Part shown: positions 15,776 through 55,979 of the stretch, in pieces
How the letters are laid out: each line of letters opens with the position of its first letter
Numbering within the stretch: position 1 is the stretch's first letter
Assembly (NCBI RefSeq): GCF_006265225.1
Contig: NZ_VDCS01000007.1
Span: forward strand, 1-64,000
Reading direction: 5' to 3'
Source: Allotamlana fucoidanivorans
GTDB lineage: Bacteria; Bacteroidota; Bacteroidia; Flavobacteriales; Flavobacteriaceae
Length of the DNA: 64,000 nt
Made by a program: the position numbers and the translations under genes
The notes under the pieces: generated by a model
What the model was told of the DNA's origin: nothing
The model's input: the letters and a program-made list of their open reading frames with translations, nothing else
Database searches by the model: none

Positions 15776-16557
15776 ATATATTAGATAAAATCACTTTAGA
15801 CAAACGTAAAGAAGTAACCCTAAGAAAAGGATTAATTCCTGTTTCTCAATTAGAACAATCTGTTCTGTTTGAAAGTCCTACTATTTCTTTAGCAAATAAT
15901 CTTAGACATAGTAAATCAGGTATTATTGCAGAACATAAGCGACGATCACCTTCAAAATCAGTTATTAATAACGAACTTAATGTGCAGGATGTAGCAAAAG
16001 GTTATGAAGATGCTGGTGTTTGTGGCATGTCTGTGTTAACCGACGGCAAATATTTTGGTGGCTCGCTGGACGATTTATTAACCGCTAGAGCAAGCTGTCA
16101 ACTTCCGTTATTAAGAAAAGAATTTATTATAGATAACTATCAAATTCTAGAGGCTAAAGCTTATGGAGCTAGTGTTATTTTACTCATTGCAGCCATTTTA
16201 TCACGGGATGAAATCAAACAATTTTCAGAATTTGCAAAAAGCCTGAATCTTGATGTGCTTTTAGAAGTTCATAATGAAGAGGAACTCCATAAATCTATCA
16301 TGCCGAGTTTAGATATGCTTGGCGTAAACAATAGAAATTTAAAAACTTTTGAAGTAAGCCTAGATACCAGTAAAAATCTCAGCAAACTAATACCTGATGA
16401 TTTTGTAAAAGTATCAGAAAGCGGCATTAGTAATATAGAAGCCATTAAGACCTTACAACCTTATGGTTATCAAGGGTTCTTAATAGGTGAGAATTTCATG
16501 AAAACAGAAAATCCAGGACATAGTGCAACGCAATTCATAAAAGATTTAGAACGATGA
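15772..16557 (+). CDS. trpC: Indole-3-glycerol-phosphate synthase
   Basis: A 261-residue TIM barrel with the TrpC marks [14 protein letters not shown] (Lys and Glu of the phosphate/catalytic region), [51 protein letters not shown] and VSESGI. It converts CdRP to indole-glycerol phosphate. Unlike in enterics it is not fused to TrpF. It overlaps both neighbours by 4 bases. Confidence 0.96.
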
Positions 16558-18377
16558 AATTAAAAGTTTGTGGTATGAAATATCAAGATAATATAGCGCA
16601 AGTTGCGGCATTGCAGCCTGATTATCTTGGTTTTATTTTTTACAAGAAAACCCCGAGACACTTTGACACTAAAATTCCAGAACTACCTGAAAACATAAAA
16701 AAAGTAGGTGTTTTTGTGAATGAAGAAGTTGGCACAATTATACAAAAAGTTAACGAATTTAAGCTAGACGCCGTGCAATTGCATGGCGAAGAATCACCTT
16801 ATTTTTGCAGTATTTTACAATCTACCACATTACTATCTAGACCAATAGAACTTATTAAAGTATTTTCTGTACTAGATGGGTTTAACTTTGAGATACTAGA
16901 AGCTTTTGAAAATGTTTGTGACTACTTTTTATTTGACACTAAAGGGAAGTTACCTGGCGGAAACGGCTATCAGTTTGATTGGAGCCTTTTAAACCACTAT
17001 CCATCAACAAAACCATTTTTTTTAAGTGGTGGCATTGGCCTAGATCAAGTAGATGAGATAAAGCAATTTAAAGCTAGTGAGGCTTCAAAATACTGCTATG
17101 CCATTGATGTTAATAGTAAATTTGAAAAAGAACCTGGATTAAAAAACATATCCGCACTAAAAGAGTTTATTAATAAATTGAGTGATAAAAAAATGCAAAA
17201 TTACAATGTAGACGACAAAGGATACTATGGTGAGTTTGGAGGTGCATTTATTCCAGAAATGCTATACCCTAATGTAGAAGAATTGCGTCAAAATTATTTA
17301 AAAATCATGGCTGAACCAGATTTTCAAAAACAATTTGATCAGCTTTTAAAGGATTATGTTGGGCGTCCTTCTCCCTTATATTTTGCAAAACGTCTTTCTG
17401 AAAAATACAACACAAAGATCTATTTAAAACGTGAAGATTTAAATCATACAGGCGCTCATAAAATAAACAATACCATTGGTCAGATTTTAATGGCCAAACG
17501 TTTAGGTAAAACCAGAATTATTGCCGAAACAGGTGCTGGTCAGCATGGTGTTGCCACAGCAACCGTTTGTGCACTTATGGGCTTAGAATGTATTGTTTAT
17601 ATGGGCGAAATTGATATTGCCAGACAAGCGCCCAACGTTGCAAGAATGAAAATGCTAGGTGCTACAGTTGTGCCTGCATTATCGGGTAGTCGTACGTTAA
17701 AAGACGCTACTAACGAAGCTATCCGCGATTGGATTAACAACCCCGTTAACACACATTACATCATTGGGTCTGCAATTGGTCCACACCCCTATCCTGATAT
17801 GGTAACACGTTTTCAGGCTGTGATTTCAGAAGAAATTAAAACGCAACTTAAAACACATGAGGGTAGAGAAAACCCAGATTATGTGGTAGCCTGTATAGGT
17901 GGCGGAAGTAATGCGGCAGGTACTTATTATCACTATTTACATGAAGAAGATGTGAATATTATTGCGGTTGAAGCGGCTGGTTTAGGTGTAGATTCTGGCG
18001 AAAGTGCTGCAACATCTGTTTTAGGGAAGGAAGGTATTATTCACGGTTGTAAAACCTTATTAATGCAAACTAAAGATGGTCAAATTACCGAACCCTACTC
18101 TATTTCGGCAGGTTTAGATTATCCTGGTGTTGGCCCCATGCATGCGCACTTATGCAAAACAGGGCGCGCTGAATTTATGGCAATAACAGATGATGATGCT
18201 ATGAAGGCCGGACTTGAACTTTGTAAGCTTGAAGGTATTATTCCTGCCATAGAAAGTTCACATGCTCTTGCTATTTTTAAACATAAAACATTTAAACCTG
18301 ATGACGTTGTAGTAATGAGTTTATCTGGTAGAGGTGACAAAGATTTACAAAACTATATTGAGTATTTTAAAATTTAA
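16554..18377 (+). CDS. trpFB: TrpF-TrpB fusion: phosphoribosylanthranilate isomerase / tryptophan synthase beta
   Basis: One uninterrupted frame of 607 codons holds two enzymes. Residues 1-213 are TrpF ([11 protein letters not shown] at the start with catalytic Cys, [21 protein letters not shown] with catalytic Asp, [11 protein letters not shown]). From Met214 (17193) comes a complete TrpB ([16 protein letters not shown] Lys in [34 protein letters not shown]-type ending). No linker is present: the fusion point is [10 protein letters not shown], across a run of seven A. Normally these are separate genes. Either one bifunctional chain is made, or TrpB is also started at Met214. All key residues of both parts are present. 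Confidence 0.93.
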
Positions 18378-18389
18378 ACGAGTTACCCT

Positions 18390-18472
18390 GCGTTAGGGAT
18401 TGAACGGCCTGTATGAGCTCCCAGACAAAGGAAGGAGCAAGTAGTGAAAGCCCGACCCTTGTGGTAACGCCC
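18390..18472 (+). repeat. Dispersed structured repeat, copy 1, inside the trp operon
   Basis: An 83-base element between trpB and trpA. GCGTTAGGG at the start and GCCCGACC...AACGCCC at the end match copy 2 (55903-55979). Possible pairings: GCGTT (18390-18394) with AACGC (18466-18470); GGG (18396-18398) with CCC (18451-18453); GCTCC with GGAGC as an inner hairpin; ACC with GGT in the last arm. An extra GTTACC (18382-18387) can pair with GGTAAC (18463-18468). The result is a cloverleaf-like RNA. The conserved GAAAGCCCGACCC is single-stranded or half-paired. It may belong to a known flavobacterial RNA or repeat family (Rfam Flavo-1 is one candidate), which I cannot check. Confidence 0.75.
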
Positions 18473-18488
18473 AAAATTGACGACTGAA

Positions 18489-19253
18489 ATGAATCGTATT
18501 CAAAAGAAATTACAAGAAGACAAAAAGTTATTATCTATATACTTTACTGCAGGATATCCTCATTTAAATGACACCGTTTCTATCATACAAGATTTAGAAA
18601 AAAATGGTGTTGATATGATTGAAATTGGATTGCCTTTTAGTGATCCGTTGGCTGATGGCCCTACTATTCAAGACAGCTCTACTGCGGCTTTAAAAAATGG
18701 CATGACTACCGAAGTGCTGTTTAGTCAACTTAAAGACATTAGGAAAACAGTAAGTATTCCATTAATTATTATGGGCTATTTTAACCCTGTATACCAATAT
18801 GGTGTGGAAGCCTTTTGTAAAAAATGTCAGGAATTAGGCATTGATGGCCTAATCCTTCCAGATTTACCTGTTGATGTGTACCAAGAAAAGTATCAGGCTA
18901 TTTTTGAAAAGTACGGACTAGTAAACGTATTTTTAATAACACCGCAAACAAGTGAGGAACGCATACGATACATTGACGCTGTTTCTAACGGATTTATTTA
19001 CATGGTAAGTACCGCTAGTGTTACAGGAAGCCAGTCTGGTTTTGGTGATGTCCAAACCGAATATTTTGAGCGTATATCAAATATGAATCTTAAAAACCCG
19101 CAAATTGTAGGTTTTGGGATTTCAGACAACAAAACATTTACTACTGCTACTACATACACTAAAGGAGCTATTATTGGAAGTGCGTTTATTAAACACCTTA
19201 CAAGCACAGGTACTAAGCATATCGGTGATTTTGTAAAAAAAGTAATTTCTTAA
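18489..19253 (+). CDS. trpA: Tryptophan synthase alpha subunit
   Basis: A 254-residue TIM barrel that cleaves indole-glycerol phosphate and passes indole to TrpB. Catalytic Glu is in DMIEIGLPFSDPLADGP, catalytic Asp in DGLILPDLPVD, and the phosphate site in VGFGISD and GAIIGSAFIK. I start at the ATG at 18489 (MNRIQKKLQED); an upstream TTG at 18477 in the repeat's edge would add four residues and is unlikely. It is separated from trpB by 111 bases holding the repeat, the only large gap in the operon. Confidence 0.95.
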   Translation: MNRIQKKLQEDKKLLSIYFTAGYPHLNDTVSIIQDLEKNGVDMIEIGLPFSDPLADGPTIQDSSTAALKNGMTTEVLFSQLKDIRKTVSIPLIIMGYFNPVYQYGVEAFCKKCQELGIDGLILPDLPVDVYQEKYQAIFEKYGLVNVFLITPQTSEERIRYIDAVSNGFIYMVSTASVTGSQSGFGDVQTEYFERISNMNLKNPQIVGFGISDNKTFTTATTYTKGAIIGSAFIKHLTSTGTKHIGDFVKKVIS

Positions 19254-55902: not shown

Positions 55903-55979
55903 GCGTTAGGGATTGAGCCATTGTTGGAGCTCCTTGCAAAGAGCGACTAGCGAAAGCCCGACCCAAAGGGGGAACGCCC
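55903..55979 (+). repeat. Dispersed structured repeat, copy 2
   Basis: A 77-base element matching copy 1 at 18390: GCGTTAGGGATTGA at the start, GAGCTCCTTGCAAAGAGC as the inner hairpin (GCTC with GAGC), GCGAAAGCCCGACCC, then CCC-AAA-GGG hairpin and AACGCCC at the end. Where bases differ from copy 1 the inner stems keep pairing, which supports conserved structure. It lies in reverse sense to the porin gene, in its 3' region. Confidence 0.75.

Follow-up and report, generated by a model that had tools for sequence, protein, structure and literature searches.

Among the closest described systems to the element analysed here are the REP/BIME repeats, which are mobilised by RAYT. Like them, the element is short, non-coding, folded and extragenic, has many copies in both orientations, and often lies close behind coding regions, directly after a stop codon. 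However, a REP/BIME is a GTAG-footed hairpin of 20-40 nt, whereas the element forms a three-way junction of 80 nt and has long conserved boxes; it is at least 62 nt long, ends GCGTT...AACGCCC and lacks the GTAG/CGTC tag at its foot. In addition, REP/RAYT systems have a cognate Y1 transposase, but none was found in the element's own genome or beside the copies examined. The passages on REP sequences in PMC3733652 do not describe the element. According to passages of PMC6006769, TnpA-REP subclass 2.6 of Bacteroidetes is flanked by 'atypical secondary structures' that have copies elsewhere in the genome. The phylum and the extra genomic copies are alike, a comparison by description only (PMC6006769), but our searches found no Y1 gene near element copies.

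MITEs, RU/ERIC, BOX and RUP resemble the element in being non-autonomous units without coding capacity and with near-inverted ends (here 6 nt, GCGTTA...TAACGC), and like a MITE the non-coding unit moves as a whole. The element differs from MITEs and other small mobile sequences in its inner boxes, which pairing constrains and which different phyla share; no target duplication was seen in the gaps compared, which gave no clean empty site. The partner transposons that we looked at were Y1 and GIY-YIG. Integron attC sites have the ends RYYYAAC (5') and GTTRRRY (3'). We rejected this identity because the box order of the element, compared by eye, is reversed: GTTAGGG lies on its 5' side and TAACGCC on its 3' side. 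Last, the CUP repeats of IncN plasmids are reported in passages of PMC5371602 and PMC6289460 as promoter/ArdK-site repeats at operon 5' ends. Three element copies lie in an apparent CUP-controlled operon region of an IncN2-like plasmid, but the element, a piece of 84 bp, is separable and stands alone in the stbC-SprT gap as well.

The element between trpB and trpA and its fold

The window, that is, the whole stretch of DNA that was analysed, is 64,000 nucleotides long. A preliminary description had recognised a structured repeat between trpB and trpA and a sister copy sharing its boxes; both copies and all of the boxes are present. The features are:

16554..18377, + strand: TrpF-TrpB fused ORF, upstream of the element (ORF list; identity read from the translation)
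18390..18472, + strand: structured repeat, whole element, subtype A2 (sequence; covariance model, 70.4 bits, model positions 1-84 of 84)
18390..18394, + strand: P1 5' arm GCGTT, pairing with 18466-18470 (compensatory changes in other copies: UA to GC, CG to UA and others)
18396..18401, + strand: P2 5' strand, GGG, unpaired A, TT (GC to AU, GC to CG; second T-A pair to AU, GC or GU)
18404..18445, + strand: variable arm P3 (distal stem GCTCC 18417-18421 with GGAGC 18434-18438 from MFE; proximal pairs covary)
18448..18453, + strand: P2 3' strand, AA, G, CCC (same covariation set as the P2 5' strand)
18455..18465, + strand: P4 hairpin ACC...GGT (about 90% of cells paired across copies; loop length variable)
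18466..18470, + strand: P1 3' arm AACGC, pairing with 18390-18394 (same basis as the P1 5' arm)
18489..19253, + strand: trpA (ATG start 18489 as in relatives; matches in 30/30 genomes searched)
55903..55979, + strand: second window copy, subtype A1 (covariance model; 3' end adjoins the stop of a 393-aa ORF on the opposite strand)

Between the TrpF-TrpB stop and the element lie 12 nt, and 16 nt separate its end from the ATG of trpA. Its box GCGTTAGGGATTGA is found at 18390 and 55903, and its box GAAAGCCCGACCC at 18446 and 55952. Even when up to two mismatches were allowed, the window contained each box only twice, and both occurrences were exact; shuffled windows gave means of 0.42 and 0.19 occurrences, and two or more occurrences in 8/100 and 1/100 shuffles, respectively. 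The covariance model recovered the 18390 copy with E = 3.5e-16 in a whole-genome search. TrpF and TrpB form a single 607-aa ORF here, and an ORF of Tamlana L055 (629 aa, same C-terminus) looks fused too. Upstream in the trp region, the window contains the Rfam Bacteroid-trp leader RF01692 (12636-12762, + strand, 56.4 bits, over gathering).

The repeat unit has (Y)GCGTTAGGG as its start and AACGCCC(AAA) as its end. In one strand the fold is a three-way junction, in which P1 (GCGTT/AACGC) is the closing helix and P4 is a short variable hairpin (ACC...GGT). The third branch starts with the GGG/CCC pairs of P2 and continues through an A-G mismatch, two pairs and a G-A mismatch (an ATTG/GAAAG internal loop) into the variable P3. 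Taken alone, the 18390 copy folded no better than its own shuffles (z -0.09); thus the evidence for pairing is comparative. Since copies chosen by exact boxes are unable to test those boxes, we used instead 25 copies defined by position, 13 from the trpB-trpA gap and 12 from behind an Fe-S gene (see below). Two Fe-S-site sequences were left out, one with P1 split by a 20-nt palindrome (G099) and one remnant (G140). In the 25 copies, 94.8% of cells were paired and 8/16 pairs had changes on both sides. None of 500 shuffles reached any of five measures, and slid structures paired at most 46.8%. Compensatory changes included P1 GCGTG/CACGC (G054) and P2 AGG/CCT (G060 and G140) at the trp site, and P2 GCG/CGC in G183 at the Fe-S site; variants in the element's own genome included P1 GTGTT/AACAC and GCAAG/CTTGC and P2 GTG/CAC. 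The 108 model-aligned copies agreed with the fold, in an alignment fitted to the model. The earlier suggestion that the variable arms keep pairing therefore holds for the family as a whole, but not for the 18390 copy by itself.

On a 54-copy alignment RNAalifold paired part of P1 with a different 3' partner. We rejected it, as the columns concerned are invariant by exact-box ascertainment and the position-defined set favours P1 as drawn. G-U asymmetry, as a guide to which strand might be an RNA, gave a weak signal: the three P3-proximal pairs contained 17 G-U versus 2 A-C, but the P1 end pair 5 A-C versus 3 G-U. The folding energy of P3 showed no strand preference (74 lower on +, 64 on -, 6 equal, p 0.30) and that of P4 a weak one (26 versus 11, 9 equal, p 0.019).

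Family size, movement and placement

The exact two-box pattern has 5 copies in the element's own genome and is present in 5/40 genomes, including that one. At least 115 stretches in named public genomes carry the exact boxes. The 80 stretches listed are mostly from Flavobacteriaceae, with some names from Sphingobacteriales, Chitinophagales and Cytophagales and a few MAGs labelled otherwise that are possibly misbinned. IMG/VR holds 12 stretches with the pattern. A covariance model (R1) was built on 54 diverse exact-box copies picked from 114 parsed copies, after near-duplicates and elements longer than 100 nt had been dropped. R1 found 26 copies at E <= 1e-3 and one weak partial match in the 4.0-Mb own genome. 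Matches were present in at least 139/199 sampled genomes of the family, scoring at most the best 22 candidates per genome, and in at least 53/395 sampled genomes of the phylum (E <= 1e-5), scoring at most the best 11. Seven complete chromosomes, chosen among element-bearing genomes, have 17 to 55 copies each, and G017 holds at least 22. Copies are 60-125 bp long. A short subtype with minimal P3 is represented by L280, L281 and L282 (G086), by G189:168822 and G189:1881699, and by L113, L117 and L121. A palindrome of about 20 nt, CCTGCC...GGCAGG, lies inside the P1 arm or the P4 region in L261 (G099), L104 and L117, forming a hairpin within a hairpin.

No Rfam 15 family matched the element in the window at gathering score (best chance match, E 1.9), and 13 further copy-bearing loci yielded only a tRNA; a relative in Rfam was thus rejected, and the match that might have explained the repeat away is absent. 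Searches of the literature by sequence strings and repeat-family terms, with most subscription papers outside their scope, returned no description of the element. This large family of strongly structured repeats appears to be absent from catalogues.

An E. coli plasmid that is IncN2-like by gene content carries four copies. The copy between stbC and a SprT-like gene shares with the other three no more than 83-84 bp (95-99% identity) when 600-bp flanks are included, and its flanks are unrelated to those of the other copies. Thus the element moves as a unit, and the earlier idea of a repeat that moves around genomes is supported. In L237 (25229-31029) nested plasmid repeats have long segments in common, and this group of repeats includes three of the plasmid's four copies of the element. 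In G086, two identical 58-mers of the short subtype stand 19 kb apart in flanks that differ except for a short upstream GCTGAT, which suggests, from sequence identity, that they may have moved recently. A GCNGAY box occurs at -19 to -4 in 18/182 copies compared with 1-4 in five background windows; thus the element may extend further in the 5' direction in some copies.

Plasmids and phage sequences contain the element too. Among the plasmids with relatives are those of Pseudomonas, Xanthomonas, Burkholderia, Serratia and others, and the smallest plasmid matches span 4-7% of a 1.2-kb query, which is the element itself. One copy lies in a Microviridae-like contig (virus type read from its ORFs) and others in tailed-phage-like contigs; two inovirus records match partially, in the 3' half of the element only. 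That conjugative plasmids and phages carry it points to a way in which it may spread.

Placement relative to genes was scored in 138 copies, with ORFs of at least 70 aa called by a simple longest-ORF rule. A stop codon faces the 3' side in 82 of the 132 copies with an ORF there and lies within 12 nt in 42; on the 5' side, a stop codon lies within 12 nt in 8/129. When repeated gene ends were removed, the counts were 34 (3') versus 7 (5') (p 2.5e-5). The downstream genes that were listed showed no gene shared between copies. Among the 150 copies listed of 232 on seven chromosomes there was no replichore strand bias (28% of shuffles reach the value). There is thus no support for insertion biased to the lagging strand, and we dropped this idea.

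Two gene-end sites compared across genera

We compared the trpB-trpA gap in 30 genera, a non-random sample picked mainly for high copy number. The element occupies it in 12 of the 30, six in each orientation:

gap with element, sense: G000, G178, G059, G017, G066, G155
gap with element, antisense: G051, G064, G060, G140, G142, G054
gap of at most 33 nt (9 genera): G147, G006, G049, G085, G139, G184, G189, G106, G048
gap with a small GIY-YIG ORF unit, ORF read by eye (6 genera): G168, G187, G099, G086, G183, G083
gap with other spacer sequence (3 genera): G087, G108, G003

The element is therefore not fixed at this place in relatives, contrary to what would have refuted the earlier interpretation, and the sense orientation noted for the 18390 copy, correct for that copy, is not a fixed property of the site. 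Gap contents also differ within a genus. In that of G187, one genome of four has an antisense element (G214, the locus being Tamlana laminarinivorans L055) and three have the GIY-YIG unit. Despite these different contents, trpB and trpA are 96-97% identical between L055 and G187, and identity is high as far as the trpB stop and then breaks. The trp gap comparisons recovered no simple insertion with a clean empty site and no target duplication; the whole spacer differs, which indicates fast, block-wise turnover that leaves no clean insertion record. The trpB-trpA gap is thus a spacer that changes fast and that the element occupies in particular lineages.

In the gaps of L208, L215, L220, L222, L226, L230, L246 and L247, hairpin repeats flank the small GIY-YIG ORFs, and the GIY-YIG unit is apparently another mobile unit that uses this spacer. 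A second spacer of the trp region, behind a TrpE-like ORF, is also used by the element: in two other genomes, at L142 (705-788, - strand) and L162, it abuts the stop of the TrpE-like ORF (read by eye).

The other site follows a gene of 438 aa whose translation we read as having Fe-S-like cysteine motifs. The gene is present in 28 of the same 30 genomes and its 3' end in 27. Behind it we found the element in 13/27 genera, a deleted remnant in G140 and nothing in 13; every copy, including the remnant, is antisense to the gene. In 12 Fe-S-site copies the 5' box is 97% and the AAAGCCC box 93% identical, compared with 60% for third codon positions of the gene and 45-66% for the flanks. By eye, the subtypes were 9 A1 and 0 A2 at the Fe-S site, and 3 A1 and 5 A2 at the trp site (Fisher p 0.009). 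The box conservation argues for persistence that may reflect either constraint or repeated re-supply by conversion; intact boxes fit host-function selection and re-supply equally well.

Nature of the element and its possible role

The account that we favour, with moderate confidence, is that the element is a mobile repeat of a non-autonomous, REP/MITE-like kind, distinct in its architecture, which some 3' gene ends have retained. It has no coding content and spreads as a single unit on chromosomes, plasmids and phages. An enzyme supplied in trans may recognise the conserved boxes in folded DNA, and insertions directly behind stop codons are tolerated and, at some sites, kept. At trpBA its role would be passive. 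We also propose, tentatively and with more doubt than belief, that it represents an undescribed class of mobile element: a self-contained three-way-junction module of about 80 nt that Bacteroidota chromosomes share with conjugative plasmids of proteobacteria and with phages, an ssDNA phage among them, and whose folded strand would be read by a putative enzyme that places the module behind stop codons.

Several other explanations have to be weighed against a mobile repeat. Each copy could instead be a host-functional structured RNA under selection, one that acts between cistrons or in a 3' UTR to adjust mRNA decay, termination or coupling, here of trpB and trpA. Compensatory changes between copies at orthologous places, such as that in G183, fit this, as do Fe-S-site boxes far more conserved than their flanks, the partly site-specific subtypes and the 42/132 copies with a stop codon within 12 nt of the 3' end. 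However, the element is absent at the trp gap in 18/30 genera and at the Fe-S site in 13/27, the P3 arm has no preferred strand and P4 only a weak one, no gene recurs downstream among those listed, and the interval 18200-18700 contains no intrinsic terminator (GC stem plus T run). Either orientation in the same gap across genera counts against a sense-strand RNA role there, and so does the finding that the 3' end abuts opposite-strand stops far more often than the 5' end. We regard an RNA function as unlikely. An effect of the element on the trpB-trpA mRNA, as had been suggested, is a possible candidate, and any influence on trpA expression would probably be a modest spacer or hairpin effect. 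The earlier interpretation is thus partly supported: a structured mobile repeat is upheld.

A quite improbable alternative is that the element is a single-stranded DNA signal of plasmids or ssDNA phages (a priming site, single-strand promoter or conversion signal) and that chromosomal copies are its remains. Plasmid copies do have stb, ardC or antirestriction, TrfB-related and DUF932 genes close by, and such a neighbourhood is typical of plasmid leading regions. The copy in the Microviridae-like contig fits as well, and so do the IncN2-like plasmid copies beside operons that appear CUP-controlled by comparison with passages of PMC5371602. Yet most copies are ordinary chromosomal intergenic ones, at 17-55 per chromosome, and the 150 copies listed of 232 lack the replichore bias. 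It is highly improbable that the copies form an atypical REP family belonging to a Y1/RAYT transposase (TnpA-REP subclass 2.6) whose gene was lost from the own genome. Phylum and description agree with the passages of PMC6006769, and placement behind genes is REP-like, but Y1 transposase (PF01797) had 0 matches in the own genome (G000) and in G017, with a positive E. coli control, and the covariance model at E <= 1 had 0 matches in 22 loci around Y1 matches of five genomes. Furthermore, a crude motif search found no YIH[QN]NP ORF in any locus examined, and there is no GTAG foot. With regard to GIY-YIG as a candidate mobiliser, the counts of small GIY-YIG ORFs overlapped between 10 element-rich and 10 element-free genomes (chosen, non-random) and so did not follow the element cleanly.

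In sum, a mobile repeat remains the explanation that we prefer. The repeat is common enough to affect the annotation of flavobacterial intergenic regions and is likely to recur in RNA-motif searches. Because a covariance model now exists, its mobiliser, its target rule and any effects on operons such as trpBA are directly testable.
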